Assembly: GCA_002708845.1 (NCBI GenBank) | Contig: PAPI01000011.1 | Span: 58,763-122,762 of the forward strand | Source of the DNA: Leeuwenhoekiella sp. | GTDB lineage: Bacteria > Bacteroidota > Bacteroidia > Flavobacteriales > Flavobacteriaceae | DNA: 64,000 bases | Direction: 5' to 3' | Shown: positions 23,277-46,352 of the stretch, piece by piece | How the letters are laid out: each line of letters begins with the position of its first letter | How positions within the stretch are numbered: position 1 is the stretch's first letter | Notes under the pieces: model-generated | Seen by the model: the letters and a program-made list of their open reading frames with translations, nothing else | Databases searched by the model: none | What the model was told of the DNA's origin: nothing | Translations under genes and position numbers: made by a program

Positions 23277-26200
23277 ATGAAGCATGTAATACTTAGAGGT
23301 ATGTTGTTTTTTGCTTCGCTTTTACTGGCAGGTATAGCGAATGCCCAAACAGTTACCGGGACAGTATCGGAGCCAAATGGCCCATTACCAGGCGCAAACG
23401 TCCTTGTAAAAGGAACTACTAATGGTACTACTACAGATTTTGACGGTAATTATACATTAAACAATGTACCTTCAGATGCCACACTTGTTTTCAGTTATGT
23501 AGGTTTTGCGCAACAAGAAGTTGCTGTAAACGGAAGATCTACAGTAAATGTAACATTAGAGGAAGACGCTGCTGCTCTTGAGGAGGTTGTGGTTATTGGT
23601 TACGGTACAACTACTGTTCGTGACGCAACCGGTTCTGTTTCTTCGGTTACCGCTGAAGAATTTAACCAGGGTGCAATTGCATCTCCAGAACAACTTATTC
23701 AAGGTAAAACTGCGGGTGTGAACATTTCTCAAAATAGTGGTGAACCGGGTGCTGGTAACAATATTCGCATCAGGGGTTCAAACTCGATTCGTTCAAATAA
23801 CAACCCGCTTTTTGTGGTGGATGGTATTCCACTTTCTGGGGAGTCGACCACTCCATCAGGTGGTGATATCATAAACGGTGCAAACGCTACCAGAAACCCC
23901 CTAAACTTCATTAACCCTAACGACATTGAGAGCATTTCGATCCTCAAAGATGCTTCAGCTACTGCGATCTACGGTTCTCGTGGTGCTAACGGTGTGGTAA
24001 TTGTTACGACCAAAAGTGGCCGTGGCGCTCAGGGAGGTGTTTTTGAATTTTCTACAAATATGAGCTTCTCTGCTCCGGCAAGAGAGTATGATCTTTTTAA
24101 TGCTCAGCAATTCCTTGCAAATACTGCAGAGTTAAGAGGGCAGGATATTGCTAATGATCTTGATTTTGGCAATGATACTGATTGGCAGGATTATATTACC
24201 CGCTCAACAATATCTACTAACAACAACCTTTCATACTCAAATAACTACAATTCTGGTAACATCCGTGCTACTGTAAGTTATGGTAATATTGAAGGGGTAA
24301 TCCAGAATTCATCTCAGGAGCGTATTACCACACGTCTTAACGCGAATCAGCGCTTTTTTGATGACAAATTAAGTTTTGCATTACAGGCATCGTATTCTCG
24401 TGTAAATGATGAGGCACCACCAATTAGTGGTCAGGGTGGAGCTAGTGGTAACCTTATTGGTGCTGCTTATTCAGCAAACCCTACATGGCCAGCTGACCCA
24501 GAATTCTTTTTTGCTGGTAACCTTTTGAACCCTGCAAACTATTTGAACAATTACAACGCAAATACGAACACAGACAGATATTTAATCAACCTGTCTACAG
24601 AATATAAATTTACCGATGCCATTACCGGTAAGGTAAGTTTAGGTTATGATAACTCTGACGCCGAGGCACAAGCTTCTGTATCTCCAAACATAAACAACTT
24701 TAACCGCGTAACTGATAACGGACAGGCCTCTTACAATACATTGGAAAATACCAGTAAGCTATTAGAAGCCACCCTTCGGTATGCTAAAGAATTTGACAAT
24801 TTCAAAATCGATGCACTTGCGGGGTATTCATTTCAGGATTTCAGACGTCAGGGCTTTAATGCTCAGGGATATGGATCTCCTGTAACTGACCTGTTAGATA
24901 TGCAGGATGCACTTAGAGGTGCGGTAAGCGATCTTCGTGGTAGAATTAATGTGCCTTATCAGCAATTTGGTTATGACGGTAACGGTGCGAATTCGTTCCT
25001 TAACTCTCTTGTACCTTTTGATGACAGTGGTGTATTACCATCTTTTACCGGAGTTTACGAATCTCTATGGCTAGATACATTTGATAACACAGATGAATTA
25101 CAATCGTACTTTGCCCGACTTCAGTTTACTTTTGCTGAGAAATACTTACTTACAGCTACAATGAGAGCTGACGGTTCTTCTCGTTTTGGAGGAAACAATA
25201 AATATGGATATTTCCCTTCAGCGGCATTTGCTTGGCAATTGGGAGATGAAGACTTCATAGGAGATGCTTTCTCAACTCTTAAATTAAGAATTGGAGCAGG
25301 TTCTACCGGTAACCAGGAAGGTTTGGGGTATGCGCAGTATCTGAACAGACAGCGTTTTGGCGGACCTGGCATTACTGATGACGGAACCGTTAACAGACCT
25401 GGTCTTGAAACCGTTGCGGTACAAAACCCTGATCTCAAGTGGGAGTCTACAATAGACCTTAACTTTGGTATCGATTTTGGATTTAATAATGATCGTTTAA
25501 ATGGATCACTTGATCTTTACCGTAAGGCAACAAGAGACCTGCTTTTCAGATCTCCTGCTCCTGCTCCGGCATTTGATCCTTTCCGATTTGTTAACCTTCA
25601 AGATGGAGAAGTTATAAACAAGGGTGTTGAACTAGCTCTTAATTACGATCTTATTCAAACTGAAGATGTGAATTTTTCTGCATCTTTTAATATCTCTTAC
25701 AACCATAACGAAGTAACAGGATTAAATGGTGCTGTTGCCAACTTTGGTGAAGTAAACGGCCCTGGTCTAACCGGTGCATTTGTACAAAGACTTGGTGAAG
25801 GAAGATCATTATTCTCCTACTATATGGCTGAATATGCTGAAGATGCTGACGGTAATCCAAATTTCTCTGCAGATGATAAGGACTTCGTAGGTAAAGATGC
25901 ATTACCAGACTGGAATACCGGTTTATCGCTTAATCTAAGTGTTAAAAACTGGGATTTTTCAACGTTCTTTACCGGTCAATTTGGATTCTACGTTTATAAC
26001 AACACGGCAAACGCTTTCCTTAACAGACCTACATTCTTGACTTCAAGAAACACTACTCCGGATGGATTGGCGCTTCTTTCTCAGGAAGTTTCAACACTTT
26101 ATTTAGAAAGTGGTGATTTTGTTAGGCTCCAAAATGCTTCAGTAGGATACAACATTCCTATGCGTGATGGTTCTGCAATAGAGTCTCTACGTGTAAATGT

Positions 26201-26363
26201 AACCGGTCAAAACTTATTACTAATTACAGGTTATAGCGGTCTTGATCCGGAAGTTTCTTCTTCAACTGGTGATTTTGGTAGCGGTATTCCTAGTGCGGGT
26301 ATTGATTATACTTCATTCCCAAGACCTACAACAGTTACAGTTGGCTTAAATGCAAGATTTTAA
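23277..26363 (+). CDS. SusC/RagA-like TonB-linked outer-membrane transporter
   Basis: 1028 residues. A signal peptide (to ~residue 23) is followed by a carboxypeptidase-D regulatory-like domain (TVTGTVSEPNGPLPGANVLV, residues ~24-100), the TonB box 'LEEVVVIGYGT', the plug domain (IRIRGSNSIRSNNNPLFVVD, SILKDASATAIYGSRGANGV) and a long beta-barrel ending in 'VGLNARF'. No STN domain is present, so it is not set up for anti-sigma signalling. It transports a ligand captured by the SusD-like partner that follows 20 bases later. No glycosidase or sulfatase lies nearby; the substrate is therefore open and may not be a common polysaccharide. Confidence 0.95.
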   Translation: MKHVILRGMLFFASLLLAGIANAQTVTGTVSEPNGPLPGANVLVKGTTNGTTTDFDGNYTLNNVPSDATLVFSYVGFAQQEVAVNGRSTVNVTLEEDAAALEEVVVIGYGTTTVRDATGSVSSVTAEEFNQGAIASPEQLIQGKTAGVNISQNSGEPGAGNNIRIRGSNSIRSNNNPLFVVDGIPLSGESTTPSGGDIINGANATRNPLNFINPNDIESISILKDASATAIYGSRGANGVVIVTTKSGRGAQGGVFEFSTNMSFSAPAREYDLFNAQQFLANTAELRGQDIANDLDFGNDTDWQDYITRSTISTNNNLSYSNNYNSGNIRATVSYGNIEGVIQNSSQERITTRLNANQRFFDDKLSFALQASYSRVNDEAPPISGQGGASGNLIGAAYSANPTWPADPEFFFAGNLLNPANYLNNYNANTNTDRYLINLSTEYKFTDAITGKVSLGYDNSDAEAQASVSPNINNFNRVTDNGQASYNTLENTSKLLEATLRYAKEFDNFKIDALAGYSFQDFRRQGFNAQGYGSPVTDLLDMQDALRGAVSDLRGRINVPYQQFGYDGNGANSFLNSLVPFDDSGVLPSFTGVYESLWLDTFDNTDELQSYFARLQFTFAEKYLLTATMRADGSSRFGGNNKYGYFPSAAFAWQLGDEDFIGDAFSTLKLRIGAGSTGNQEGLGYAQYLNRQRFGGPGITDDGTVNRPGLETVAVQNPDLKWESTIDLNFGIDFGFNNDRLNGSLDLYRKATRDLLFRSPAPAPAFDPFRFVNLQDGEVINKGVELALNYDLIQTEDVNFSASFNISYNHNEVTGLNGAVANFGEVNGPGLTGAFVQRLGEGRSLFSYYMAEYAEDADGNPNFSADDKDFVGKDALPDWNTGLSLNLSVKNWDFSTFFTGQFGFYVYNNTANAFLNRPTFLTSRNTTPDGLALLSQEVSTLYLESGDFVRLQNASVGYNIPMRDGSAIESLRVNVTGQNLLLITGYSGLDPEVSSSTGDFGSGIPSAGIDYTSFPRPTTVTVGLNARF

Positions 26364-26382
26364 TCTTAAAAAAATTGATAAA

Positions 26383-28005
26383 ATGAAAAGACTAAACAAA
26401 TTTAAATTGGTTTTTCTCAGTGTCCTAACGGTGACAGCTTTTACAGCCTGTACCGATCTGGAAATTGAGGAGACAGATTCAATACTTACCGATGGCTTTA
26501 CTGGTATTCCTACGGCTGAAGAAGCGGCTAGTACCGTAAGTGGTATGTATAACAATATTAGAGGATACGTAGGAGATCAGGCAAATTTATATGCCCTTAG
26601 TGAAGTTACCACAGACGCACAGTTAGTCCCTACAAGAGGATCTGACTGGGGGGATAACGGTATATGGAGACAGTTGCACCAGCACACCTGGACTGCAGAT
26701 CACCAATACATCAGAACGGTTTTCGACCAATGGAATGAATTACAATTAACTGCCAGTACTGTATTAGATGAGCGCTCAGCTTCTTCAGCAGAATCTCGTG
26801 CACAGGCTTCTTTTTTACGTGCTTTAGGTATGTTTGTAATTCTTGACAATTTTGGTCAGGTTCCGTTTAGAGATACTACTGCTGATCCACGTGAAAATCC
26901 TGAAGTTTTAACCGGTGCAGATGCTGTGGCTTTTATCGCTTCTGATTTACAAGATGCTATTTCAGGTTTACCTAGCTCTTCAGCAGGTGACGACAACCCA
27001 CGTGCAACAAAAGCAGCAGCTCGTTATCTTTTAGCAAAACTTCATCTGAACAGACATATCTATGAGGGAACGGGAAGTCCTGCTGCTTCAGATATGAATG
27101 AAGTTATTTCTTTAGTTGAAGGAATCGAAGATGACGGATATGCATTACAGGATGGTTATTTTGAAATGTTTGAGCCTACTCCAGATTCAGAAACTATTTG
27201 GTACATAAACACATCAACAGGTAACCGTATCTGGAATACACTACATTACAATTTTACCCACCCGGATAACACAGGTGGTGGTTGGAATGGTTTTGCTACA
27301 CTGGCAGAATACTACGATCTATTTGAAGGACCTTCTGATTCTAATAATCCTGGTGAAGGTCAGGAAGAACGTAGAGGTTATGTTGCTCAAAGCGGTATCG
27401 CCTTCACAGGTCAGGATTTTATGAGCGATATTGACAATGATGGCTTTGCTGATGCTTCTAACGTAGGATATGGATTTTTAATTGGTCAGCAATATGCGCT
27501 TAATGGTGACGAACTTACTGATAGAGGTAATGTCCCATTACAGTTCAAACGTGATTTTGTAGATGCAGGTACTGGTCAACCAAGCCTTGTTGAAAATGGT
27601 GAGCAAACCGGAATTCGTGTTATCAAATACAATCCGATAAATGGAGCTTTTAGAGAGCACGAGATATTCTTCCGTTATTCTGATGCTTACTTAATGAAAG
27701 TTGAAGCAATCCATAATGGTGGAACCAGTTCTGAGAATGCATTAACCTTAATGAATGATTTAAGAACATTGAGAGACGCAACACCACTCACAAGTCTTAC
27801 AGATCAGGATATCATCGATGAAAGAGGTCGTGAATTATACATTGAGTTCTGGAGACGTAACGATCTTATCCGTTTTGGTCAGTATACTAAAGACTGGGCG
27901 TTTAAAGATCCTTCTGCGGTAGGAAATGATGAAAAGAATTTATTTCCGATACCAAATACACAGGTTATCTTGAACCCTAACTTAGTTCAAAACCCAGGCT
28001 ACTAA
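26383..28005 (+). CDS. SusD/RagB-like surface nutrient-binding lipoprotein
   Basis: About 540 residues starting at ATG 26383 (an in-frame ATG at 26350 overlaps the SusC-like gene). The signal peptide ends with a lipobox Cys at residue 23 (TVTAFTACTDLEIEE). SusD hallmarks are present: an N-terminal helical region with 'SFLRALGMFVILDNFGQVPF', later 'TKAAARYLLAKLHLNRHIY', and the C-terminal 'FFRYSDAYLMKVEAIHNGG' and 'DERGRELYIEFWRRNDLIRFG'. It forms the lid over the SusC-like transporter. Transcription probably ends at the strong terminator 25 bases later, so the VCBS genes have their own start or depend on read-through. Confidence 0.95.
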   Translation: MKRLNKFKLVFLSVLTVTAFTACTDLEIEETDSILTDGFTGIPTAEEAASTVSGMYNNIRGYVGDQANLYALSEVTTDAQLVPTRGSDWGDNGIWRQLHQHTWTADHQYIRTVFDQWNELQLTASTVLDERSASSAESRAQASFLRALGMFVILDNFGQVPFRDTTADPRENPEVLTGADAVAFIASDLQDAISGLPSSSAGDDNPRATKAAARYLLAKLHLNRHIYEGTGSPAASDMNEVISLVEGIEDDGYALQDGYFEMFEPTPDSETIWYINTSTGNRIWNTLHYNFTHPDNTGGGWNGFATLAEYYDLFEGPSDSNNPGEGQEERRGYVAQSGIAFTGQDFMSDIDNDGFADASNVGYGFLIGQQYALNGDELTDRGNVPLQFKRDFVDAGTGQPSLVENGEQTGIRVIKYNPINGAFREHEIFFRYSDAYLMKVEAIHNGGTSSENALTLMNDLRTLRDATPLTSLTDQDIIDERGRELYIEFWRRNDLIRFGQYTKDWAFKDPSAVGNDEKNLFPIPNTQVILNPNLVQNPGY

Positions 28006-28029
28006 TTTTTAGAATTTGCCAAATAATTA

Positions 28030-28060
28030 AAGAGGGTCATTGCAAAATGACCCTCTTTTT
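28030..28060 (+). terminator. Strong terminator after susD-like gene
   Basis: A 12-bp stem, AAGAGGGTCATT (28030-28041) with AATGACCCTCTT (28046-28057), closed by a GCAA tetraloop and followed by a T run. It separates the SusC/D unit from the UnbV/VCBS genes. Confidence 0.88.
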
Positions 28061-28183
28061 AAATTTAAATAAGCACTCATTTAGAGTAGCAAACACATTT
28101 AAAGAATATAATATTAAGTTCCTTTAGACTGTTACAATTGGGCACATTCTGCCTATATTTCTCCAAATTTTAGAACACCCTTC

Positions 28184-31100
28184 ATGTCCCGAAGCTGTCT
28201 TTATTCTTTATTATTTCTGCTATTTTTAGCTTCATGTGCTAAACAAAGCCAAGACCCAGCAATGTTGACAGCTGTTGAAGATACCGGTATTGAATTTAGC
28301 AATGATCTGACAAACACAACGCAACTCAACATTCTGAATTATCTGTATTTCTACAATGGCGCCGGGACTGCAATAGCAGATTTTAATAATGACGGACTTG
28401 AGGATATTTACTTTACAGGCAATCAGGTGTCAGATAAACTATACCTGAACCAGGGTAGTTTTAAATTTAAAGACATCAGCGCAGAAGCCGGAATTACGAA
28501 CAACAACTGGAACACCGGCGTTACCGCAGTTGACATCAATGCAGATGGACTTCTCGATATCTACATTTGTACGGTAAGTGGTCACCTCGACCTCAAGGGC
28601 CATAACAAGCTTTATATCAATCAAGGCATAAAAGACGGAATACCTCAATTTAAAGAAGAGTCTGAAAAATACGGTTTAGATTATCACGGACTTTCAACAC
28701 AAGCGGCTTTTTTTGATTACGATCTTGACGGAGATCTCGATGTATACGTACTCAACCACTCCGTGCATCCCAATTCAAACTACGGCAGAGCTAACATTCG
28801 TAGGGTTTCAGACAGTTTGACCGGTGACCGATTATATAAAAACGACAACGGTTATTTTACCGACGTAACTTCTTCCGCAGGAATTTTAAATAGCAAAATA
28901 GGCTATGGCCTTGGGGTTTCGGTATCTGATTTGAATAATGACAACTACCCTGACCTGTATATCGCTAACGACTTTTTTGAGAACGATTACATCTATTTAA
29001 ACAATCGGGATGGAAGCTTTACCGAAGTCAATACGACTAAAAATCTTCTGGGGCACACCTCTCATTTCTCTATGGGAAGCGCCATCGCAGATATTAATAA
29101 CGATCGCAATCCTGATATTTTAAGTCTCGATATGCTCCCCCAAAACCTCGAAGTTTTGAAAGCATCGGGTACTGAATACACCTACCCCATCTATCAAAAT
29201 CAATTACGTAACGGCTACGACTATCAGTTTATGCAAAATGCCCTGCAACTCAATCTGGGTGGAGAACGTTTTTCTGAAATCGCATTCCAAAGTGGTATTG
29301 CAGCAACCGAGTGGTCTTGGAGTCCGCTTGCAGCCGATTTTGATAACGATGGTTTTAAAGATTTATACATAGCAAATGGAATTCTAGGTGCGACCAATGA
29401 TATGGATTTTGTCAGTTTCATTTCAAACGAATCCATTCAAAAACGATTGGGCAAGACTATGTCTGAAGCAGAGCTTGAATTTATCAAACAACTACCACAA
29501 ACACACGTGCCCAACTATGCCTACAAAAACAATGGAGACGGCACATTTAGAGACGTAACCCAGAGCTGGACGGCAAACAGCCCTTCATTTAGCAACGGCG
29601 CTTCTTATGCAGATCTGGATAATGACGGAGACCTCGACATTGTGGTAAATAACATCAATGCAAAAGCATTTATCCTTGAAAATAAAACCACAAACCCCGG
29701 AATTCAGGTACGGTTTAAAGGAGAAAAAAATAACACCTACGGTATAGGCGCTAAACTCACCGCATTTTCTGGCGATACCGTTCAGTTTTTTGAAAACTAC
29801 ACCACGACAGGTTTTATGTCTGCCGTTCCTCCATCGGTACTCATCGGTTTGGGCAACGCATCCCAAATTGATTCGCTTTTAGTCACCTGGCCATCAGGAA
29901 AAACACAAGCTTTAAAAAACATCAAGACCAATCTTCTCGTAGAAGAAAAGAATGCACAAGAAAATCCATCACCCAAACCATTCGAAAAACCGGAAATTAG
30001 CTGGGTGCAGGATTCCCTTACTCTTAATTTTACGCATAAAGACGGTGCTTCCATAGAATTTAGCCGCGATCCGCTTGTTCCCTACGCTGGCACTAACACC
30101 GGACCACAAATTGCCAGTACTGACCTTAATCAGGATGGTCTTGATGACATGATTATTCTGGGAGCAAAAGCCCAGAAGACAGTTCTTTTCTTTCAAAATA
30201 AAGACGGAAGCTTTACCGAAGCATTTTTGCCTCAAGCCGATGATGATGCGATAAACGAAGACATTGCAATTGCAATTTTTGACGCGGATGGAAACGGCAC
30301 TCCTGACATCGCCATCGCCAGTGGCGGTAACGAATTTACCCAGGGCAAAGCCCTTACTCCGCGTCTTTATTTAAATGAAAATGGAAACTTTACAAAAATT
30401 CAAGGAGCCTTTAGAAATCTAAACCTTAATGCGTCTACGATAAAATCTGTAGATCTGGACGGTGACGGAAATCTTGATCTTTCAATTACGGCTGATCTGG
30501 TGCCCCATGAATTTGGCGCCACACCAAAACAATATCTGCTAAAAAATGACGGTTCCGGGAATTTTACCGACATCACTTCAAGCTATGCCCCAGAATTCCA
30601 AAATATCGGTAATGTAAAAGACATCGTTTGGTCAGATCTGGATCAAAATGGATATCCGGACGCTATTGTTGCTGGGCAATGGATGCCGATTAGCATTTTC
30701 ACTAATGACGGAAAACGACTAAAACCGGTAAATACAGAAAGTTTACAAAATACAAACGGACTTTGGAACAGCTTGAAAGTCGCCGATTTTGACAAAGACG
30801 GAGATCTGGATATCGTAGCCGGAAACTGGGGCCTCAATACCCGACTTCATGCTTCAGTACAAGAACCACTTAACCTGTACCGTTTTGATTTTGATGCAAA
30901 CGGAAAAATTGATCCAATAACTACCTATTTCTATAAGGGAACCGAAACCGTTTTGGCTACTAAAGATGAACTTGTCAAACAACTTCCTTACCTGAACAAA
31001 AAGTTTTTGAGTTATCACGCTTTTGCGAAAGCAAGCATTACCGATTTATTTTCCGCAGAAAAACTAAAAAAAGCGGAGAAAAAACAGGTATTTACCCTCG

Positions 31101-31465
31101 CAAGTACGTATTTTGAAAACACGGGTGATTTCAGTTTTAAAGCGTCCCAACTCCCTTTTATGGCTCAAATCACCAGCGTTAAAAACATAGTGGCTCACGA
31201 TTTTAATGAAGATGGGCTACAGGATTTACTTTTGCTGGGCAATGATAGTGAAATCAGTACACAACTGGGAAGGCTTGACGCTTCGCACGGTGTATTCTTA
31301 CTCAATAAAGGCACAACTTTTGAATATGAAGACGCACCAAATATTGACATTACCGGAGCAGTGCGGAGCAGTACATTTTTTAACCTAAATGAAGATCCCC
31401 TACTAATTTTGGGGCGCAATAATGACACACCTATTTTTATACGAAAAGCTACTGTACATGAATAG
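28184..31465 (+). CDS. Giant VCBS/FG-GAP + ASPIC-UnbV lipoprotein, paralogue 1 (CRTAC1-like)
   Basis: 1093 residues with a lipobox Cys at 18 (LFLASCAKQ). An N-terminal half of about seven FG-GAP/VCBS blades carries calcium-type motifs such as DFNNDGLEDIYF, DINADGLLDIYI and DYDLDGDLDVYV. An ASPIC/UnbV domain follows at ~505-590 (GIGAKLTAFSGD...VLIGLGNASQIDSLLVTWPS). A second set of blades at ~640-1080 includes DLDGDGNLDLSI and DFDKDGDLDIVA. This is a surface beta-propeller-like protein; binding of ligand or matrix is the likely role. It is most similar to paralogue 3 (both have HTS.FSMGS). It overlaps the next gene by eight bases. Function unknown. Confidence 0.88.
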   Translation: MSRSCLYSLLFLLFLASCAKQSQDPAMLTAVEDTGIEFSNDLTNTTQLNILNYLYFYNGAGTAIADFNNDGLEDIYFTGNQVSDKLYLNQGSFKFKDISAEAGITNNNWNTGVTAVDINADGLLDIYICTVSGHLDLKGHNKLYINQGIKDGIPQFKEESEKYGLDYHGLSTQAAFFDYDLDGDLDVYVLNHSVHPNSNYGRANIRRVSDSLTGDRLYKNDNGYFTDVTSSAGILNSKIGYGLGVSVSDLNNDNYPDLYIANDFFENDYIYLNNRDGSFTEVNTTKNLLGHTSHFSMGSAIADINNDRNPDILSLDMLPQNLEVLKASGTEYTYPIYQNQLRNGYDYQFMQNALQLNLGGERFSEIAFQSGIAATEWSWSPLAADFDNDGFKDLYIANGILGATNDMDFVSFISNESIQKRLGKTMSEAELEFIKQLPQTHVPNYAYKNNGDGTFRDVTQSWTANSPSFSNGASYADLDNDGDLDIVVNNINAKAFILENKTTNPGIQVRFKGEKNNTYGIGAKLTAFSGDTVQFFENYTTTGFMSAVPPSVLIGLGNASQIDSLLVTWPSGKTQALKNIKTNLLVEEKNAQENPSPKPFEKPEISWVQDSLTLNFTHKDGASIEFSRDPLVPYAGTNTGPQIASTDLNQDGLDDMIILGAKAQKTVLFFQNKDGSFTEAFLPQADDDAINEDIAIAIFDADGNGTPDIAIASGGNEFTQGKALTPRLYLNENGNFTKIQGAFRNLNLNASTIKSVDLDGDGNLDLSITADLVPHEFGATPKQYLLKNDGSGNFTDITSSYAPEFQNIGNVKDIVWSDLDQNGYPDAIVAGQWMPISIFTNDGKRLKPVNTESLQNTNGLWNSLKVADFDKDGDLDIVAGNWGLNTRLHASVQEPLNLYRFDFDANGKIDPITTYFYKGTETVLATKDELVKQLPYLNKKFLSYHAFAKASITDLFSAEKLKKAEKKQVFTLASTYFENTGDFSFKASQLPFMAQITSVKNIVAHDFNEDGLQDLLLLGNDSEISTQLGRLDASHGVFLLNKGTTFEYEDAPNIDITGAVRSSTFFNLNEDPLLILGRNNDTPIFIRKATVHE
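31018..31032. repeat. Near copy of the palindrome CGCTTTCGCGAAAGC
   Basis: CGCTTTTGCGAAAGC, one mismatch from the 15-base form, inside the first VCBS/UnbV gene, where it encodes AFAKA. Listed as a member of the dispersed palindrome family. Confidence 0.4.
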
Positions 31466-34400
31466 TTTAAAACAGATAACCCTATTAAGCTTAAGCCTTC
31501 TTTTTGCAGCTTGTGGTAAAGACAGTTCGGAGACTGAAGAAACCGCACCTCAGGAACCCAAACTCTTTAGCCTTTTGGGCACTGAAACCACAGGCATCGA
31601 CTTCGTAAATGCCATAGAGAATGAGAAGGATTTCAACATTTTTAAATACCGCAATTTCTACAACGGCGGCGGTGTAGCTATTGGTGACATCAACAACGAT
31701 GGTCTTGCTGATATCTATTTGACTGCAAATATGGGCCAAAACAAACTTTACCTCAACAAAGGAAATTTTAAGTTTGAAGACATTACTAAAAAAGCCGGTG
31801 TGGGTGGCGATAAACCCTGGTCTACCGGTGTGGTCATGGCCGATGTAAACGCAGACGGCCTGCTTGATATTTACGTAAGCAATGCAGGTAATATGGAAGG
31901 TGACAACCACGACAACGACCTTTACATCAACAACGGAGACCTCACTTTTACCGAAAAGGCAGAACAATACAATCTTGCTAAAACCGGTTTTTCAACTCAG
32001 GCGAGCTTTTTTGACTATGACAAAGACGGGGACCTGGATGTGTACATTCTAAACAACAGTAACGTTCCCGTAAGTGGATTGGGTTATGCCGAGCAGCGCG
32101 ACACCCGTGCCGAAAACTGGGAAAACGTACCTGATATTTTTAAAGGAGTAGGTGATTTATTGATGCGTAATGACGGTGATACGTTTACAGATGTTAGTAA
32201 TGAAGCTGGTATTTATGGCAGTCTTATTGGTTTTGGCCTGGGAGTGATGGTTACCGATATCAACAACGATTTATGGCCAGACATTTACATTTCAAACGAC
32301 TTTTACGAGCGTGATTACCTCTACATCAATCAGAAAGACGGAACCTTTAGTGAAGAAATTAAAGACTGGACTTCGCATTTGTCGCTTTCGGCAATGGGAG
32401 TTGATATCTCAGACGTTAACAACGACGGTTTGCAGGATATTTTTATTACCGATATGCTTCCGGAGCCGGAAGAGCGTGTAAAATCGGTGATGGAGTTTGA
32501 CAGTTACAATGTCTACAAACTCAAGCAGAGTAAAGACTTCTACCAGCAATTCATCCAAAACACCTTGCAGATCAATAATGGTAACGGAAGCTTTTCGGAG
32601 ACCGCGTATTACAGCGGTGTTGATGCTACAGATTGGAGCTGGGCCGGTTTGCTTGTAGATCTTGACAACGACGGCTACCGCGATATCTACGTCACAAACG
32701 GCATCAATCACGATCTAACCGATCTAGATTTTGTTGACTTTTTTGCCAACGAAATTATTCAAAACATGGCATTAACCGGGAAACGTCAGGCTATTGACTC
32801 TATCATCAATAAAATGCCGAAAAAACCTTTGGTAAATGCTGTTTACCGAAATATGAAAGACCTCAAGTTTGAAAATGCAGCTACGCTTTGGGGCTTAGAT
32901 CAACCCGGTATGTCCAACGGTTCGGCTTATGGAGATCTGGACAACGATGGTGATCTGGATCTGGTGGTCAACAATGTGAATATGCAGGCTTTTGTATACC
33001 GCAATGATGCTGAAGAGCAAACCCAAAACCGCTATCTCAACATCACATTTAAAGGAGGCGAGAAAAATCCGTTTGCGGTGGGTGCTTCGGTACGTTTGTA
33101 TTTTGACAATCAGCAGATTTATCAGGAACTGTATCCCGTACGCGGCTTCCAATCCTCGATGGATTATGAAATGACCATAGGTCTGGGGCAAACCCAAAAA
33201 CTCGATTCGTTACGCGTGCTTTGGCCTAATGACAAAACACAACTGCTTACCGATGTTTCTACCAATCAGACTTTAAACCTAACTCAGGCAGAAGCTACCG
33301 AAACTTTTGTTCCGCGTAAGCAAAACACCGAATCCCAGTTGCTGACTGAACTGAGCAATACTAACCTAAATGCTAATCCTGAGAATGCATACAATGATTT
33401 TGATTATGAAGGTTTGATTTCCAAAAAACTTTCGCAAGAAGGTCCCGCGCTTGCTGTGGGCGATGTAAATGGAGACGGTAATGATGATGTGTTTGTGGGA
33501 GCTCCCAGCGGAAGCGCAGCAACACTTTATCTGCATTCCGGCAACGGAAAATTGACTCCTAAAAATCAGGCTGCTTTTACAGCTGACGAAAATTTTGAAG
33601 ATACGTCCGCAGCACTTTTTGACGCAGACGGTGACGGGGATCTCGATTTGATGGTCGCTTCAGGCGGAAACGAGGTCGGTAAAAAAGAACTCTTTCGTCC
33701 CAGATTATACCTTAACGACGGCAAAGGGAATTTCACCAAATCCTCGGAAGAATTGCCTTCAGCCTTTCAAAATATGAGTGTGGTTGCACCAAATGACTTT
33801 GATCAGGATGGAGATATCGATGTGTTTATCGGTTCGCGCAGCGTGGTAGGGGTTTACGGTATAGACCCCCCGCAGTTGTTTTTAGAAAATACCGGCAATG
33901 GTATTTTTGTAGACGCCACCGAGCGTCTGGCGTATGATCTTAAAGATGCAGGAATGGTAACTGATGCGCTGTGGTTAGATATTGACGGCAATGGTTTTGA
34001 TGACCTTGTTACCGTTTCAGAATGGGGAACTCCGAATATTTACCGCAATTCGGGTCGAAGACTTTCAGAAAAAGAAAGCGACCTGAGCGATAAAACCGGT
34101 TGGTGGAATACGCTTGCTGCAACTGACATTGATAATGATGGCGATATGGATCTGGTTTTGGGTAACGAGGGTGAAAACCTACATTACCTGCCTACTGTTG
34201 AAAATCCAATGGTGATGTACATCAACGATTTTGACAACAACGGTACCATCGAGCAAATTACCACGATGCGGAAAAACGGCAAAGATTATCCGCTGCATCA
34301 GAAAAAGGAAATTACCGCGCAGATGACTTCCCTTAAAAAGCAAAACCTGAAAGCTTCAGACTATGCAAGCCGTTTTATAGACGAGATCGTTTCGCCCGAA

Positions 34401-34808
34401 AGTCTTAAAAACGCGATTAAAAAGGAGGTTAGCTATTCTCAATCAGTAATCGCGATTAATGATGGCAAAGGTAATTTCAGCTTTAAAGCCCTTCCCTACC
34501 AGACGCAACTCTCCTGTGTGTGTGATATTTTGGCTACAGACCTTAACAAAGACGGCCTGGCAGATCTCATTATGGCTGGTAACAACTTTGAGTTCAAACC
34601 GCAATACTCACAGCTGGATGCCAACTATGGTAACGTATTACTCAACACCGGCGGCGATAATTTTGACTGGCAGAATTACGGTAAAAGCGGATTTTTTATA
34701 AAAGATGAAGTGAAGCAACTGGCTACTTTTAGCGATAAAAACGGAAAAACCTTTGTCATTGCTGCGATAAACGATAAAAAACCCAAGATTTTTGAACTCA
34801 ATAACTAA
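31458..34808 (+). CDS. Giant VCBS/FG-GAP + ASPIC-UnbV lipoprotein, paralogue 2
   Basis: About 1116 residues from ATG 31458, which lies inside the end of paralogue 1 (coupled). The earlier in-frame ATG at 31422 gives no better signal. The lipobox Cys is at 19 (SLLFAACGKDSSETEE); the acidic/Lys stretch after it could be a surface-export signal. Layout matches paralogue 1: blades (DINNDGLADIYL, DVNADGLLDIYV, DYDKDGDLDVYI), ASPIC/UnbV at ~525-605 (VGASVRLYFDNQQ...MTIGLGQTQKLDSLRVLWPN) and a second blade set (DVNGDGNDDVFV, DFDQDGDIDVFI). It differs from 1 and 3 in the segment LSLSAMGVDISD. Ligand unknown. Confidence 0.88.
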   Translation: MNSLKQITLLSLSLLFAACGKDSSETEETAPQEPKLFSLLGTETTGIDFVNAIENEKDFNIFKYRNFYNGGGVAIGDINNDGLADIYLTANMGQNKLYLNKGNFKFEDITKKAGVGGDKPWSTGVVMADVNADGLLDIYVSNAGNMEGDNHDNDLYINNGDLTFTEKAEQYNLAKTGFSTQASFFDYDKDGDLDVYILNNSNVPVSGLGYAEQRDTRAENWENVPDIFKGVGDLLMRNDGDTFTDVSNEAGIYGSLIGFGLGVMVTDINNDLWPDIYISNDFYERDYLYINQKDGTFSEEIKDWTSHLSLSAMGVDISDVNNDGLQDIFITDMLPEPEERVKSVMEFDSYNVYKLKQSKDFYQQFIQNTLQINNGNGSFSETAYYSGVDATDWSWAGLLVDLDNDGYRDIYVTNGINHDLTDLDFVDFFANEIIQNMALTGKRQAIDSIINKMPKKPLVNAVYRNMKDLKFENAATLWGLDQPGMSNGSAYGDLDNDGDLDLVVNNVNMQAFVYRNDAEEQTQNRYLNITFKGGEKNPFAVGASVRLYFDNQQIYQELYPVRGFQSSMDYEMTIGLGQTQKLDSLRVLWPNDKTQLLTDVSTNQTLNLTQAEATETFVPRKQNTESQLLTELSNTNLNANPENAYNDFDYEGLISKKLSQEGPALAVGDVNGDGNDDVFVGAPSGSAATLYLHSGNGKLTPKNQAAFTADENFEDTSAALFDADGDGDLDLMVASGGNEVGKKELFRPRLYLNDGKGNFTKSSEELPSAFQNMSVVAPNDFDQDGDIDVFIGSRSVVGVYGIDPPQLFLENTGNGIFVDATERLAYDLKDAGMVTDALWLDIDGNGFDDLVTVSEWGTPNIYRNSGRRLSEKESDLSDKTGWWNTLAATDIDNDGDMDLVLGNEGENLHYLPTVENPMVMYINDFDNNGTIEQITTMRKNGKDYPLHQKKEITAQMTSLKKQNLKASDYASRFIDEIVSPESLKNAIKKEVSYSQSVIAINDGKGNFSFKALPYQTQLSCVCDILATDLNKDGLADLIMAGNNFEFKPQYSQLDANYGNVLLNTGGDNFDWQNYGKSGFFIKDEVKQLATFSDKNGKTFVIAAINDKKPKIFELNN

Positions 34809-37800
34809 AATAAGTCTGCTGGCCTTTTTGGGACTCGTAACCTTTTCGTGCTCCGACAAGCCCGAATTGTTCACCAACCCTGACACTGAAAAAGCAGGCA
34901 TCAGCTTTCAAAACACGCTAACACCCACCGAGGATATGAACATCCTTGACTACCTCTATTTTTACAATGGGGGCGGTCTGGCAATAGGAGATATCAACAA
35001 CGATGGATTGCCAGATATCTATTTTTCAGGTAATCAGGTAAAAAATCAATTGTACCTCAACAAAGGAAATCTGCAATTTGAAGACATTACAGAAACTGCT
35101 GGTGTGGCCGGCAAAAGCGATTGGAATACCGGTGCGGTTATGGGCGATGTAAACGGTGACGGCTTTCTGGATATTTACGTATGCGCCGTGGTGGGCCTTA
35201 ACGGGCTTGATGGCTACAATGAACTCTTTATAAACAACGGTGACGGTACCTTTACCGAGAGTGCCGCTAAATACGGCCTCGATCTCGATACCTTTTCGTC
35301 TTCAGCCGCCTTTTTAGATTATGATCTGGATGGCGACCTGGACATCTACATACTCAATCACGCGGTACATACGCAGAGTTCTTTTGGTAAAGCCGATTTG
35401 CGCCACGAGCGTAATCCGCAAACCGGAGATAGGCTGATGCGTAATGATGGGGATCGTTTTACAGATGTGAGCGAACAAGCAGGCATTTACGGCGGAATCA
35501 ATTCGTACGGTTTGGGTATCGCAGTATCAGATTTTAATCTCGACGGTTATCCCGATTTGTACATTGGGAACGATTTTCATGAAGATGACTATTACTACAT
35601 CAATAACGGCGACGGTACCTTTACCGAAGATTTAAAAAACCATTTTGGGCACACCAGCCGGTTCTCGATGGGTAGTGATGTAGCAGACCTCAATCACGAC
35701 GGCTGGCCCGATTTGATTTCGTTAGATATGCTGCCGCAGGATGAAAATGTACTGAAATCAACTGAAGGAGATGACAACATTCAAACCCAGCGTTTGCGTA
35801 CAGACCGCTATGGGTATCATTATCAGTTCACCCGGAATATGTTATTTATAAACCGGGACGGTGGCGACTACCAGGAAACGGCACTTTTAAGCGGGGTCGC
35901 TGCAACAGACTGGAGCTGGAGTGCACTCTTTGGTGATTACAACCAGGATATGCAACAGGATTTGTTTATCTCTAACGGAATCCCCAAACGCCCTAATGAT
36001 CTGGATTACATTAAGTTTGTTTCCAGCGATCAGATTCAGAATAAAATCAACAACACCGCGCTTATTGATCAAAAAGCTCTAGAGCAAATGCCCGATGGTG
36101 TCACCCGCAATTATGTCTATGAAGGCAGTGAAGACCTTCAGTTTAAAGACCAAAGTGAAACCTGGATTGCCCAGGACACGCTTGTTTCTGGTGCTACAGC
36201 CTATGCAGATCTAGATGATGACGGAGACCTTGATTTGGTAACCAATAATATCAACACCAGTCCTACCCTGTATATCAATCAAACCAATGACAAGGCTACG
36301 TATCTTAAGCTCTATTTGAAAACCCCAACTCAGAATGATTTTGCGCTGGGCGCGAAAGTATATGCTTACGCAAACGGGGTTCAACAATTTAAAGAACTCT
36401 ATCCTGTACGGGGCTTTCAGGCATCGTCAGAGCCGGTGATTCATTTTGGCTTTGGCAATCAAAAAAAGGTTGATTCCATTCGCATTATTTGGCCAGACCG
36501 AAGCACGCAACTGCTTAAAGATATTGCCACAAATGAGACGTTGCATGTTAAGCAAGAAAACACTTCTCCATTTAACTATGCCACACTAAGACCGAAGCAA
36601 CAACTGATTTTCAAATCGGTTACCGACTCGCTGGGCCTTGACTTTGTACATCGCGAAGATGCCTACTCAGACTTCGACCGCGAAAAACTCATTCCGTATC
36701 TGGTGGGAGACCGCGGACCGGCCGTAGCACAGGGCGATTTAAACGGAGATGGCAAAACCGATTTGTTCTTTGGCGGTTCTAAGTATATTGCCTCTAAAAT
36801 CTACCTGCAAGGCGATTCAACCTTTGTGAAAACAGACTTTCCCGGCATTCAAAACGACTCGATTAATGAGGAGGTTACAGCTGTTATTGCAGATTTTAAT
36901 AATGATGGTAAAAACGATCTGATGACCGGTACTGCCGGTGGGGATTTTTACAATAAGGCCAGGCCGTTACTTGATGTCTTGTATCTTAATGAAGGGGATT
37001 CTTTTATAGCTTCGGCCCTGCCGGAATTGTTTGAGAACACGTCCGTATTAGCCGTATACGATTATGATAACGACGGTGATCTTGATGTTTTTGCAGGATC
37101 CCAAAGCGTTACGGCAAGTTTCGGGAAACTACCTTCTTCCTATCTGCTTGAAAATGACAAGGGGACTTTTCGCGTAGCACAGGAATTTAAAGAACTGGGA
37201 ATGGTAACCGCTGCGGTTTGGGACGATTTTGATGGAGATGGAAAAGCCGATTTGATCGCAGTGGGCGAATGGATGGCTCCGACTTTTCTTAAAAATGAAG
37301 GAACTAAACTCAAAATCGTTTCTAAAACTAAAGATGGCCTTGAAGGTCTTTGGCAAAGCATTATTCCGTTTGATATAGACGGCGATGGCGACATAGATTA
37401 TGTCGTGGGGAATTGGGGCGAAAACAGCAAGTTTCAGGCTTCTGCAGAGTCGCCTATGAAAATGTATTACAGCGATTTTGACAACAACGGCCAGACCGAA
37501 ACTATAGTTGCAACTGCAAAAGATGGGAACTACTACCCACTAATGGGACTTGATGCTCTGGCTTCACAAGTTGTAAGTCTCCGTAAGAAATACCAAAGTT
37601 ACCGGGATTTTGCCGGCCAAAACATCGAAGAAATACTTAGCGAAGAACAGTTAAAGAATTCTAAAATTCTAAACGTAAACACCCTGAAAACCGGATACTT
37701 ACAAAACAACGGAAATTCATTTGATTTTGTACCTTTGCCGCGCGATTTACAGGTGGCTCCGGTTATGGCTTTTTGCCTGTTTGATTTTGATGGCGACGGT

Positions 37801-38040
37801 AATGATGAAGTGCTTGCAGGTGGAAATTATTTTGGTGTACAACCCTTCCACGGAAGGCTCGATAGTTTCACCGGGGCGTTGATTGAAAGTGATAGCAACA
37901 TCACATCGGGTGAGAAACTCGGATTAAATTTTGCTGGGAAGTCCATACGTGATTTGTCAGTAATTCATTTAAACGGGAAAGCTTATCTGATAGCAACGCC
38001 AAATAATGAAAAGATTCAGCTCTACCAACTAAAACGCTAA
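34792..38040 (+). CDS. Giant VCBS/FG-GAP + ASPIC-UnbV lipoprotein, paralogue 3
   Basis: 1082 residues. The start is a TTG at 34792, inside the last codons of paralogue 2; it gives a good lipoprotein signal (MNSITKISLLAFLGLVTFSC, Cys at 20). Blades (DINNDGLPDIYF, DVNGDGFLDIYV, DYDLDGDLDIYI), ASPIC/UnbV at ~503-590 (LGAKVYAYANGVQQF...HFGFGNQKKVDSIRIIWPD) and the second blade set (DLNGDGKTDLFF, DYDNDGDLDVFA) follow in the same order. The last base of the stop is 42 bases before the haloperoxidase-like gene, so all four may share one transcript. Function unknown. Confidence 0.87.
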   Translation: MNSITKISLLAFLGLVTFSCSDKPELFTNPDTEKAGISFQNTLTPTEDMNILDYLYFYNGGGLAIGDINNDGLPDIYFSGNQVKNQLYLNKGNLQFEDITETAGVAGKSDWNTGAVMGDVNGDGFLDIYVCAVVGLNGLDGYNELFINNGDGTFTESAAKYGLDLDTFSSSAAFLDYDLDGDLDIYILNHAVHTQSSFGKADLRHERNPQTGDRLMRNDGDRFTDVSEQAGIYGGINSYGLGIAVSDFNLDGYPDLYIGNDFHEDDYYYINNGDGTFTEDLKNHFGHTSRFSMGSDVADLNHDGWPDLISLDMLPQDENVLKSTEGDDNIQTQRLRTDRYGYHYQFTRNMLFINRDGGDYQETALLSGVAATDWSWSALFGDYNQDMQQDLFISNGIPKRPNDLDYIKFVSSDQIQNKINNTALIDQKALEQMPDGVTRNYVYEGSEDLQFKDQSETWIAQDTLVSGATAYADLDDDGDLDLVTNNINTSPTLYINQTNDKATYLKLYLKTPTQNDFALGAKVYAYANGVQQFKELYPVRGFQASSEPVIHFGFGNQKKVDSIRIIWPDRSTQLLKDIATNETLHVKQENTSPFNYATLRPKQQLIFKSVTDSLGLDFVHREDAYSDFDREKLIPYLVGDRGPAVAQGDLNGDGKTDLFFGGSKYIASKIYLQGDSTFVKTDFPGIQNDSINEEVTAVIADFNNDGKNDLMTGTAGGDFYNKARPLLDVLYLNEGDSFIASALPELFENTSVLAVYDYDNDGDLDVFAGSQSVTASFGKLPSSYLLENDKGTFRVAQEFKELGMVTAAVWDDFDGDGKADLIAVGEWMAPTFLKNEGTKLKIVSKTKDGLEGLWQSIIPFDIDGDGDIDYVVGNWGENSKFQASAESPMKMYYSDFDNNGQTETIVATAKDGNYYPLMGLDALASQVVSLRKKYQSYRDFAGQNIEEILSEEQLKNSKILNVNTLKTGYLQNNGNSFDFVPLPRDLQVAPVMAFCLFDFDGDGNDEVLAGGNYFGVQPFHGRLDSFTGALIESDSNITSGEKLGLNFAGKSIRDLSVIHLNGKAYLIATPNNEKIQLYQLKR

Positions 38041-38082
38041 TTGAAAAATCTATTCGTTTTAATTAAAAAATTTATTTGAACC

Positions 38083-39435
38083 ATGTTTAAGTACTTGTTC
38101 TTAATATTCTCAAGCGCTCTGCTACTTAGCTCTTGTGCTAAAGACACTCCGCTAGAGGTAACACCAGATGATTACAACAATGCGGTTGACAAGGTGACCG
38201 AGGTGATTATTCATGATATTTTTTCGCCGCCGGTAGCCAGTCGCATTTATGCCTATTCCAATATTGCAGCTTACGAAGTGTTGGCGCAAAACCACCCTGA
38301 GTACAGTTCACTGGCGGGTAAATTAAATGGCTTAGGCGAAACTCCAAAAGCTGAAAATCCTGCGGTAAACCATGATGTCGCGGCTTTAATTGCGCAGATG
38401 GAAATGGCTAAAAGCCTTATTTTTAGTGAAGATCGAATTACCGAAGTTCGCGACAGTCTTTATAAAACCTGGGAAGATCAAAATGCTGACGAACTCGAAG
38501 CTTCAAAAGCATACGGACTTCAGGTTGCCGACCATATCAAAAACTGGATGGATGGAGATATGTATAAGCAAACCCGTACCATGCCCAAATTTTCGGTAAA
38601 TGCTGATAACCCTTCACGCTGGCAACCCACTCCTCCTGCGTATATGGATGGAATAGAACCCCACTGGATGAAGATTCGCACGTTTGTACTCGACTCGGCT
38701 TCACAGTTTAAGCCTGTGCCTCCACCAGCGTTTTCTATGGATGAAGGCAGCGAATTTCACAAGCAATTGATGGAAGTATACGACGTACGAAACGAGATGA
38801 CTGAAAAAGGTGATGATTCAGAAGAGGCTGCGATCGCAAAATTCTGGGATTGTAATCCGTATGTGTCTACTCACAAGGGGCACCTGATGTTTGCCACCAA
38901 AAAAATCACACCCGGTGGTCATTGGATAGGCATTGTAAAGATTGCCACTAAAAAGAATAATGCAGACCTGATGGAAACGGTGTATGTCTATACCAAAACC
39001 TCGATTGCGCTCTTTGACGGATTTATAAGCTGCTGGGATGAGAAATACCGCAGTAACCTTATTCGCCCTGAGACCCTTATAAACCAGTATATTGATGATA
39101 GCTGGACTCCGGTATTGCAAACCCCACCATTCCCTGAATACAGTAGTGGTCACTCGGTAGTTTCAGGAGCAGCTGCAGAGGTGCTTACTGAAATTTATGG
39201 TGATGATTTTCAGTTTGATGACGATACCGAAACCGCATACGGTTTGCCCGTGCGTAGCTTTAATTCGTTTAGAGCCGCATCTTCAGAAGCCGCACTAAGC
39301 AGGCTGTACGGAGGCATACATTACCGTGCTGCCATCGACGAGGGTTTAAAGCAGGGACGTCAGGTAGGTCAGTATATCGTAAGTAACCTGCACATGAAAA
39401 ATGATGGCGAAGCCCTTTCGCACAGCGGAAACTAA
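38083..39435 (+). CDS. Vanadium haloperoxidase / PAP2-like lipoprotein
   Basis: 450 residues with a lipobox Cys at 18 (SALLLSSCAKDTP). The C-terminal half has the three vanadate/phosphate-binding motifs of the superfamily: KYRSNLIRP (K-x6-RP, ~321-329), SSGHS (~354) and SRLYGGIHYRAAID (~404-417). Close relatives are annotated vanadium-dependent haloperoxidase or acid phosphatase; sequence alone does not decide between halide oxidation and phosphate hydrolysis. As a lipoprotein directly after the three UnbV/VCBS genes, it probably acts outside the inner membrane on the same substrate or surface. Followed 54 bases later by a GyrI-like gene. Confidence 0.87.
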   Translation: MFKYLFLIFSSALLLSSCAKDTPLEVTPDDYNNAVDKVTEVIIHDIFSPPVASRIYAYSNIAAYEVLAQNHPEYSSLAGKLNGLGETPKAENPAVNHDVAALIAQMEMAKSLIFSEDRITEVRDSLYKTWEDQNADELEASKAYGLQVADHIKNWMDGDMYKQTRTMPKFSVNADNPSRWQPTPPAYMDGIEPHWMKIRTFVLDSASQFKPVPPPAFSMDEGSEFHKQLMEVYDVRNEMTEKGDDSEEAAIAKFWDCNPYVSTHKGHLMFATKKITPGGHWIGIVKIATKKNNADLMETVYVYTKTSIALFDGFISCWDEKYRSNLIRPETLINQYIDDSWTPVLQTPPFPEYSSGHSVVSGAAAEVLTEIYGDDFQFDDDTETAYGLPVRSFNSFRAASSEAALSRLYGGIHYRAAIDEGLKQGRQVGQYIVSNLHMKNDGEALSHSGN

Positions 39436-39489
39436 AAATTCCTATTTAATAAAACACATTAAATCAAACCCCGATTTAAATTAGAATCT

Positions 39490-40404
39490 ATGATTAAGAA
39501 AATTGGTTTTGTAGTGATAACCCTGCTCGTTGTAGCCCTGGCCTGGTATCTTTTTGTAAAACCCAGCGATTACATCATAAATTTTAAAGTAAAAACCACA
39601 CCCGGAACCGTTGTTCAGTCTATCAAAACCTGGAATAGCAATTTAACTGCGAGTACCATCACAGAGCAGCACGGAACTTCGGCAATTGTACAAGAGCGGC
39701 AGTTTGGTGATTCAACAGTTACCTATACGTATCACGCTTACGCGCTTAACGATTCGATTACCAAAGTGAGTGTAGGAATCAAAGACGCCGAGCACAGCCT
39801 TAAAAATCGGCTTACGGTGCCTTTTTCCAATACGCTTTTTAAGGAGCGCAGCACTGCCAATGTGATGGAGCTCTACGAAGCTTTAAATGAACATCTGAAG
39901 CAAATTAAAATTGAAATCACGGGTATTCAAAAAACCCCTTCAACCTATTGCGCGTATATTCCGCTTAAAAGTATGCAGGAGGCCAAAGCTTTAGGGATGA
40001 TGCGTAACTACGGCTATATAGGCGATGTACTGGTACGTAATAATGTAGAAATGAACGGCCCTCCATTTGTAGAAGTAACCGAATGGAATCAGGAGACAGA
40101 CAGCATATCCTATAACTTTTGCTTTCCCATCATTCGCTCTGAAAACCTGCCCATCTCAGACGAAATTAAATACAAACGTTTGTTTGAAAAAGATGCTATT
40201 CACGCAGTATACAATGGTAATTACATTACTTCAGATCGTGCATGGTATGCCTTGCTGGCTTACGCAAAGCGAAATAATATTGAAGTTGAGGAAAAGCCCT
40301 TAGAAGTCTTTTTCAACAACCCCAATATGGGAGGCAATGAGCTGGAATGGAAGGCTGACATTTATATGCCGCTGAAGCAGGAAAGTCTGGTTCAGGTGGA
40401 TTAA
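39490..40404 (+). CDS. Membrane-anchored GyrI-like small-molecule-binding protein
   Basis: 304 residues. One N-terminal helix (FVVITLLVVALAWYLFV) anchors an SRPBCC-like domain (~25-140), followed by a GyrI/AraC-effector-like domain (~150-300) with 'EITGIQKTPSTYCAYIPLKS' and the closing 'NPNMGGNELEWKADIYMPL'. GyrI-like domains bind small hydrophobic or cationic molecules. It is likely the last gene of the susC-haloperoxidase region by position, though a promoter of its own is possible. Its end overlaps the convergent gene by four bases. Confidence 0.75.
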   Translation: MIKKIGFVVITLLVVALAWYLFVKPSDYIINFKVKTTPGTVVQSIKTWNSNLTASTITEQHGTSAIVQERQFGDSTVTYTYHAYALNDSITKVSVGIKDAEHSLKNRLTVPFSNTLFKERSTANVMELYEALNEHLKQIKIEITGIQKTPSTYCAYIPLKSMQEAKALGMMRNYGYIGDVLVRNNVEMNGPPFVEVTEWNQETDSISYNFCFPIIRSENLPISDEIKYKRLFEKDAIHAVYNGNYITSDRAWYALLAYAKRNNIEVEEKPLEVFFNNPNMGGNELEWKADIYMPLKQESLVQVD

Positions 40405-46351: not shown

Positions 46352-46352
46352 A

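Follow-up and report, generated by a model that had tools for sequence, protein, structure and literature searches.

The 64,000-nucleotide stretch of Leeuwenhoekiella sp. (Flavobacteriaceae) DNA analysed here, positions 58,763 to 122,762 of the forward strand of contig PAPI01000011.1 (assembly GCA_002708845.1) and in its whole length referred to as the window, carries an array in which a SusC/SusD pair is followed by three giant FG-GAP/UnbV lipoproteins, named U1, U2 and U3, by a homologue of vanadium iodoperoxidase (VIPO) and by a GyrI-like protein. The array comprises the following features:

23277 to 26363, forward strand: SusC/RagA-type TonB-linked outer-membrane protein (TIGR04056, 698 bits, above cut-off; best solved relative the SusC homolog 8aa4, E 7e-98)
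26350 to 28005, forward strand: SusD-type surface lipoprotein, the lid (PF07980, PF14322; best solved relatives 3jys and 3ck7, SusD; lipobox-like, CTDLEIE)
28029 to 28058, forward strand: terminator-like hairpin with a 13-bp stem, between SusD and U1
28184 to 31465, forward strand: U1, FG-GAP/UnbV lipoprotein of 1093 residues (PF13517, PF07593; U1 clade)
31422 to 34808, forward strand: U2, FG-GAP/UnbV lipoprotein of 1128 residues, likely start 31458 (PF13517, PF07593; U2 clade)
34792 to 38040, forward strand: U3, FG-GAP/UnbV lipoprotein of 1082 residues with a TTG start, the copy adjoining the peroxidase (Pfam domains; U3 clade; AlphaFold2 model)
38083 to 39435, forward strand: VIPO, vanadium iodoperoxidase homologue, a PAP2-type lipoprotein of 450 residues (homology to 4CIT/4USZ; vanadate-site residues)
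39490 to 40404, forward strand: GyrI-like protein of the small-molecule-binding type, 304 residues, with an N-terminal (membrane) helix (PF06445)

SusD and U1 are separated by 178 bases, while U1 and U2 overlap by 44 bases if counted from the first ATG of U2, or by 8 bases from the internal ATG at 31458, and U2 and U3 overlap by 17 bases. Pfam analysis revealed FG-GAP_3 stretches and one mid-protein UnbV_ASPIC domain in each of U1, U2 and U3, above the curated cut-offs, and lipobox-like N-termini were found on all three as well as on VIPO. An earlier reading of the same DNA, made from the letters alone and here called the sequence-only reading, had described three lipoproteins of about 1,100 residues behind SusC/SusD, and the open reading frames, Pfam domains and lipoboxes confirmed this description; the GyrI-like gene 3' of VIPO is a further member of the array that had been absent from it. 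No glycosidase was detected by Pfam in the interval 23277 to 40404, whose seven proteins begin with SusC and end with the GyrI-like protein. Measured by the criteria for a polysaccharide utilisation locus, the SusC and SusD pair is present and carbohydrate-active enzymes in the same operon are absent.

Comparison of VIPO with solved structures revealed a full-length match to 4CIT/4USZ (690 bits, E 8.6e-207, residues 7-443 of 450 aligned), the solved Zobellia enzyme that we take to be zgVIPO1. Assuming that the vanadate site consists of the residue set K, R, S-G-H, R, H, all of it is present in the window protein (K321, R328, S355, G356, H357, R407 and H413). Among 185 distinct homologues, counted after merging identical VIPO sequences, K, R, H, R and H are invariant in 185 of 185, and all seven residues are retained in 180. 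What the sequence-only reading had called a PAP2/haloperoxidase-like lipoprotein was confirmed as a full-length homologue with intact active-site residues and is, by homology, a member of the VIPO family and not a vague haloperoxidase relative; it is predicted to oxidise iodide or bromide with H2O2, and to do so at the cell surface. The entry 4USZ is the vanadium iodoperoxidase of Zobellia galactanivorans, for which the Fournier 2014 title is cited (PMC5064120). In Zobellia uliginosa we found the order U1-U2-U3-VIPO-GyrI with no SusC/D in the stretch (L046, L072), and the VIPO of L046 is near-identical to 4CIT by eye, so that an enzyme close to the solved one belongs to such an array. U1-U3 and SusC/D as genomic partners of the Zobellia VIPO found no mention in the accessible parts of the literature searched.

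The neighbourhood was followed through the genus, a family panel of 149 genomes from 148 genera (own genome included), and genomes outside the family. VIPO was present in all 12 other genus genomes searched, each with the order SusC-SusD-(U1)-U2-U3-VIPO-GyrI, three of them without U1, and in 60 of the 149 panel genomes. All 61 panel VIPO loci besides the window's own were fetched as stretches of 20 kb, shorter at contig ends, and their genes were labelled with profiles and by BLAST with proteins of the window and its neighbours, not from annotation; the panel counts for SusD, LacI, XylA and GH65 are lower bounds owing to stretch length. A same-strand UnbV gene lies directly adjacent to VIPO in 52 of the 61 loci and somewhere in the stretch in 56, the nine loci without adjacency being L049, L051, L054, L055, L146, L172, L184, L185 and L189, with the array of L185 on the opposite strand. 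SusD was recognised in at least 41 of the 61, LacI in at least 23 and the GyrI-like gene in 33. With an identity of at least 52% as the threshold, 34 of the 149 panel genomes, counting the own one, contain U2; all but one of them (G082) also have VIPO, and these 33 co-occurrences correspond to a Fisher p of 2e-15, uncorrected for kinship. The named loci are the best 80 of at least 578 relatives and were not drawn at random; a UnbV gene adjoins VIPO in 71 of them, and a GyrI-like gene is adjacent in 67.

Loci of the panel assigned to type A hold at least three UnbV genes in 19 of 34 cases, two in 13 and one in 2, and L047 and L048 consist of just U3 and VIPO. For a sample of the phylum, one VIPO locus each was taken from 40 genomes outside the family, out of 46 that gave a match, L237, which starts with a 121-residue UnbV piece, being scored as a miss; here a same-strand UnbV gene was found in the stretch in 26 of 40 loci and within 1.5 kb in 19, and SusD in 11, the simple form being SusC-SusD-one UnbV-VIPO (e.g. 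L213, L227). Recurrence across the family and outside it also settles a point on which the sequence-only reading had made itself depend, namely that the neighbourhood should not be confined to one genome: the array is old, conserved and not a product of chance. Among the matches listed in our literature searches, no paper joins UnbV, SusC/D and a haloperoxidase, and the main texts of PMC6298971 and PMC11036162 contain no mention of FG-GAP, VCBS, UnbV or peroxidase.

These counts bear on a first alternative, which we consider unlikely but worth weighing: that the locus serves halogen defence or detoxification, with VIPO destroying algal H2O2 through iodide oxidation, and U1-U3 and SusC/D merely co-regulated with it, sugars signalling the alga. 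Such a role would fit the intact active-site residues, the existence of VIPO loci that show sugar genes alone or lack a UnbV partner (L077, L112, L113, L121 and L126, of which L112 carries GH65 and beta-phosphoglucomutase), and, in the available part of that report, the higher expression of Zobellia vIPO3 on Ascophyllum than on alginate (PMC9296495). It is at odds with the position of VIPO directly beside UnbV in 52 of the 61 loci and with the return of this pairing in different UnbV clades and outside the family; mere co-regulation needs no adjacency, and the adjacency thus weighs against it.

An AlphaFold2 model of U3, built on an alignment of 59 sequences, reached a mean predicted local distance difference test (pLDDT) score of 87.7, and its best match in the PDB was murine CRTAC1 (9etn; TM-score 0.69 normalised to the target length and 0.37 to the query length), which was also the sole sequence match among solved structures. 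A phage relation of U3 was considered and dropped, as there was no PHROGs match. For the descent of the three copies, a tree was built from 170 UnbV proteins of 1,000-1,200 residues, leaving aside L061 (1,344 residues), fragments and all 80 named loci, and splits were taken from the tree as built. U1 (28 proteins, support 0.998), U2 (42, 1.0) and U3 (46, 1.0) form separate clades with at most one member per locus, in agreement with the earlier claim that the copies are non-redundant; the three lineages predate the genera under comparison, and hence do not represent a recent tandem expansion. In a second type of locus, VIPO is preceded by two U2b genes and one U3b gene; the U2b clade (30 proteins, support 0.97) is sister to U2 at 1.0, and the U3b clade (13 proteins, support 1.0) stands beside U3 with a support of just 0.32.

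A split of 88 versus 82 proteins with support 1.0 unites U1 and U3 and places U2 and U2b opposite, and of the six UnbV relatives from the own genome in the tree, five fall on the U2 side while the sixth, L060, is sister to U1. U1 and U3 are therefore nearer kin to each other than to U2, whose closer relatives are UnbV genes at other loci and not the two copies flanking it. The sequence-only reading had concluded from the segment HTS.FSMG, seen in copies 1 and 3 and not in copy 2, that the array probably grew by two duplications. The segment itself was verified, U2 differing at three of its seven fixed positions, and the kinship of copies 1 and 3 stood; growth by duplication in place was not supported, since the grouping of U2 with UnbV genes of other loci is not explained by simple duplication within the array, which makes the interpretation of the segment half right. 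Outside the window, the own-genome relatives keep the segment to varying degrees: L060 has it intact, L059 differs at one position, L056, L058 and L062 at two each, and L057 at four.

To our knowledge, no function is known for the ASPIC/UnbV family. From their lipoprotein signals, propeller fold and the SusCD or glycosidase loci around their paralogues, we predict a surface-binding role for U1-U3, three non-redundant proteins whose lineages separated long ago.

Several side observations concern genes around these arrays. Between the two U2b genes lies a gene of about 190-200 residues in L144, L152, L153, L171, L176, L179-L182 and L188, and L049 has one at 15711-16316 without a Pfam match. Upstream of U1, L160 holds genes resembling alkanesulfonate monooxygenase and SorA/SoxC-like sulfite dehydrogenase with an SSF-like gene between them, and L170 holds open reading frames of matching length with similar N-termini. 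A gene termed P283 (e.g. L161:18800-19648), encoding a lipoprotein-like product of about 283 residues with a weak NHL-repeat match, follows the GyrI-like gene or VIPO in many loci.

Pairwise identities among the 13 genomes of the genus revealed that SusC/D and the remainder of the array have separate histories. U2, U3, VIPO and GyrI correlate with one another at r 0.95-0.99 and SusC with SusD at 0.96, whereas SusC or SusD against U2, U3, VIPO or GyrI gave just 0.28-0.43, yet above the permutation expectation for 13 genomes. Thus, G002 and G009 are 96-99% identical from U1 to GyrI, in contrast to 62% in SusC and 51% in SusD, while G002 and the window share 95% identity in SusC and SusD and 72-84% across the other genes; between G002 and G009, DNA identity drops within the first 600 bases of SusC and recovers near the 3' end of SusD. 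The alleles fall into the groups {G000, G002, G003, G004}, {G005, G006, G008, G009, G012} and {G001, G007, G010, G011} (the window and genus loci L034-L045). Judged by these identities, SusC/D recombine as a cassette while U1 to GyrI are inherited together; alleles would be swapped by recombination under selection that spares the U-VIPO block, and pressure from phages or substrates may drive this exchange of surface receptors.

The boundary between the two parts is marked by the hairpin at 28029-28058, which has a T-containing tail; in the scan that recorded it, terminator-like sites taken together (18) were no more frequent than in shuffles (16.1). In 46 of 51 loci a comparable hairpin follows SusD at a distance of 260 bases or less, versus 4 of 400 random stretches, a control of random positions, mostly inside genes, which speaks for the presence of the hairpin and not for the SusD end being special among gene ends. 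As its sequence differs between genera and its position is kept, it is probably functional. It is probably a terminator or attenuator that sets SusC/D above the rest, and would then allow SusC/D to be made in excess of U1-U3 and VIPO. In the portions of the searched literature that were accessible, no account of hairpins after susD was found among the matches listed.

At the other end of the array, the model of the GyrI-like protein (pLDDT 91.6, helix at residues 2-23) retrieved CtaZ and CTR107 in a Foldseek search, with the ARO/CYC protein StfQ at rank 25. The likeness to CtaZ and CTR107 belongs to the C-terminal half, while the N-terminal half is possibly SRPBCC-like, as far as the model indicates. 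The protein is presumably anchored in the inner membrane and binds a small molecule.

The genes surrounding the array and its relatives point to sugar. Some loci carry inserted genes, placed either after SusC/D and ahead of the U array or after the U genes and ahead of VIPO. These encode xylose isomerase (XylA; TIGR02630, above cut-off), a xylulokinase-like FGGY kinase (XylB-like; TIGR01312, below cut-off) and an SSF sodium symporter. XylA occurs in at least 10 of the 61 panel loci, in both locus types, and in 9 of the best 80 named loci; in the nine named loci without adjacent UnbV, XylB is found in seven and XylA in six within about 5 kb before VIPO. LacI is often divergent from SusC in related loci. 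In the window itself, three linked genes lie outside the operon on the opposite strand (44045-48057):

44045 to 46351, reverse strand: GH65 family protein (PF03632/03636/03633, NF010380)
46353 to 47012, reverse strand: beta-phosphoglucomutase (TIGR01990, 219 bits, above cut-off)
47014 to 48057, reverse strand: LacI-family regulator (PF00356, PF13377)

GH65 begins 3.6 kb past the GyrI-like gene and is the sole PF03632 match in a search of the own genome; the LacI gene of the window adjoins GH65, not SusC. Among the stretches fetched for the 12 other genus members, 8 have GH65 on their downstream side. In L154, L164, L173 and L175, GH65, beta-phosphoglucomutase and LacI are divergent from SusC, in L157 GH65 and LacI only. 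All three lie near the named loci L063, L082, L085 and L096, GH65 alone near L098, and GH65 with the mutase near L112. As a general neighbour GH65 was discarded after the panel downstream stretches had been searched (0 of 20), and its linkage is retained only for this genus and several further ones. Further along the window, GH32, a sugar porter and a PfkB kinase follow in a row (48193-52057), with GH43 at 56264-57310. The earlier statement that the locus has no glycosidases consequently stands for the operon itself and fails beyond it, where GH65, and further on GH32 and GH43, are encountered.

The UnbV relatives elsewhere in the own genome adjoin GH3/esterase, GH2/GH97/GH88 and GH67 genes, and L062 has the order SusC-SusD-UnbV. 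In L057 (C1:14000-33900, at 2896-13467), SusC, SusD, one UnbV gene, a vanadium haloperoxidase of a second type (DUF6851, VCPO second domain, PAP2) and GH10, a xylanase family, stand in a row, so that UnbV, haloperoxidase and SusC/D meet a second time in the same genome. Sugar is thus what these clues have in common, but they differ as to which sugar is meant.

Uptake of a non-standard substrate, for example a halogenated, phenolic or phosphorylated compound, had been the proposal of the sequence-only reading, and the operon without glycosidase, the presence of a haloperoxidase and the resemblance of the GyrI-like domain to binders of aromatic dyes and closthioamide would suit it. It is unsupported because the recurring neighbours are sugar genes, namely XylA, the XylB-like kinase, SSF symporter, LacI, GH65 and beta-phosphoglucomutase, and the UnbV relatives lie in glycosidase loci; we now regard it as very improbable.

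The reading that we prefer, at roughly even chances, is that the array is a carbohydrate capture and uptake locus that has no glycosidase in its operon and holds large FG-GAP/UnbV propeller lipoproteins and a vanadium iodoperoxidase instead. SusC/SusD, whose family is evident, would import an oligosaccharide or glycoside, and U1-U3 would hold or present this substrate to them. VIPO, by its homology and active-site residues, would likewise act at the surface, using H2O2 to oxidise iodide or bromide, while the GyrI-like protein would bind a small molecule from its anchor in the inner membrane; LacI, where adjacent, probably relays a sugar signal that controls the locus.

Several observations weigh against this carbohydrate reading. 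UnbV is lacking on either strand in the panel stretches L054, L055, L146 and L184, and on the same strand in 14 of the 40 VIPO loci outside the family. SusD is absent from the stretch in 7 of the 34 type-A loci, including that of Zobellia uliginosa (L046) and L151, whose contig begins inside U2, so that SusC/D is no obligate partner. The array may be transcribed in two units, split at the hairpin, and the UnbV proteins may have an enzymatic role. GH65 was found within 14 kb downstream in 0 of 20 panel loci, and the xylA and xylB of the window genome lie on another contig. The sugar clues themselves conflict, XylA/B and GH10 indicating a pentose and GH65, beta-phosphoglucomutase and the starch SusD among the two best solved relatives of SusD indicating an alpha-glucoside. 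Finally, the reading leaves unexplained why a sugar system needs an iodoperoxidase.

An alternative that addresses the peroxidase, and that we hold to be quite improbable, is sugar-dependent iodine uptake, in which oxidation of sugar gives H2O2, VIPO makes I2/HOI at the surface, and U1-U3 with SusC/D take up the iodinated product. In its favour, FG-GAP repeats bind Ca in known proteins, and in two Arenibacter genomes other than that of strain C-21 a single stretch (L101, L103) holds SusD, U2, U3, VIPO and the GyrI-like gene. Against it, SusC/D normally import oligosaccharides or peptides, and no sugar oxidase gene was recognised among the neighbours scanned. Neighbours of 550 to 570 residues had been guessed to be GMC oxidases and thus a source of H2O2, a candidate that was rejected, those scanned being SSF symporters and one gamma-glutamyltranspeptidase. 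Iodine uptake by Arenibacter C-21 needs glucose, oxygen and calcium; glucose can be omitted if a system that generates H2O2 or oxidises iodide is present, and glucose oxidase together with haloperoxidase has been proposed (PMC5064120). This phenotype fits the combination, as a lead and not a test; the at least five VIPO homologues of C-21 (PMC5064120) weigh against the iodine-uptake alternative.

Sugar and peroxidase may also be joined in a haloperoxidase-powered carbohydrate locus, an improbable proposal in our estimation: halogen species from VIPO would prune or unlock sugars held on U1-U3 in place of glycosidases, or peroxide derived from sugar would drive VIPO, joining sugar capture and iodine uptake. 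If true, either version would supply a genetic basis for the iodine accumulation of Arenibacter C-21, which depends on glucose, O2 and Ca.

Returning to the carbohydrate reading, the array would be a new form of SusC/D sugar locus with UnbV propellers, up to three in number, and a vanadium iodoperoxidase where glycosidases usually stand. Its conservation in marine bacteria related to Zobellia suggests a link between the capture of sugar and halogen chemistry on the cell surface. The literature searched, in its accessible parts, gives no settled reason for the presence of vanadium iodoperoxidases in marine flavobacteria, and the UnbV adjacency in 52 of 61 family loci, often together with SusC/SusD and sugar genes, makes this question testable. 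In addition, the ASPIC/UnbV family gains a genomic setting in carbohydrate loci, and SusC/D cassette swapping becomes visible beneath a constant set of surface proteins. Apart from these subjects, the window encodes, at 8058-10426, a protein that bears the CHU_C signal for type IX secretion, with a PorP/SprF gene after it.

Among known systems, the closest is the Zobellia VIPO (4CIT/4USZ), of which the window protein is a full-length homologue with a conserved active site and whose Z. uliginosa relative stands in the same U1-U2-U3-VIPO-GyrI order. The glycan utilisation loci and SusCD utilisomes of Bacteroidota are alike in the SusC/SusD pair, the surface lipoproteins and, in many relatives, LacI, whereas the operon described here has giant UnbV proteins and a haloperoxidase in place of a glycosidase. 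CRTAC1 (9etn) shares the FG-GAP propeller and ASPIC/UnbV domain, but is an animal protein of about half the length of the U proteins. In the capture of vitamin B12 by BtuB-BtuG, a surface lipoprotein likewise works with a TonB-dependent transporter, and BtuG has a propeller fold; the U proteins, in contrast, have about 1,100 residues and two propeller regions, and the proposed analogy rests on fold and lipobox. The xylan/xylose loci of Gramella flava, in the portion of the report available, similarly group SusC/D, LacI, xylA, xylB and a transporter (PMC5306329), but carry xylanases, and neither haloperoxidase nor FG-GAP was found in the main text. In the fructan locus of B. thetaiotaomicron, according to the accessible part of its description, SusC/D likewise differ between close strains within one locus (PMC5967196), while in the array reported here the exchanged alleles leave U1-U3, VIPO and GyrI untouched.

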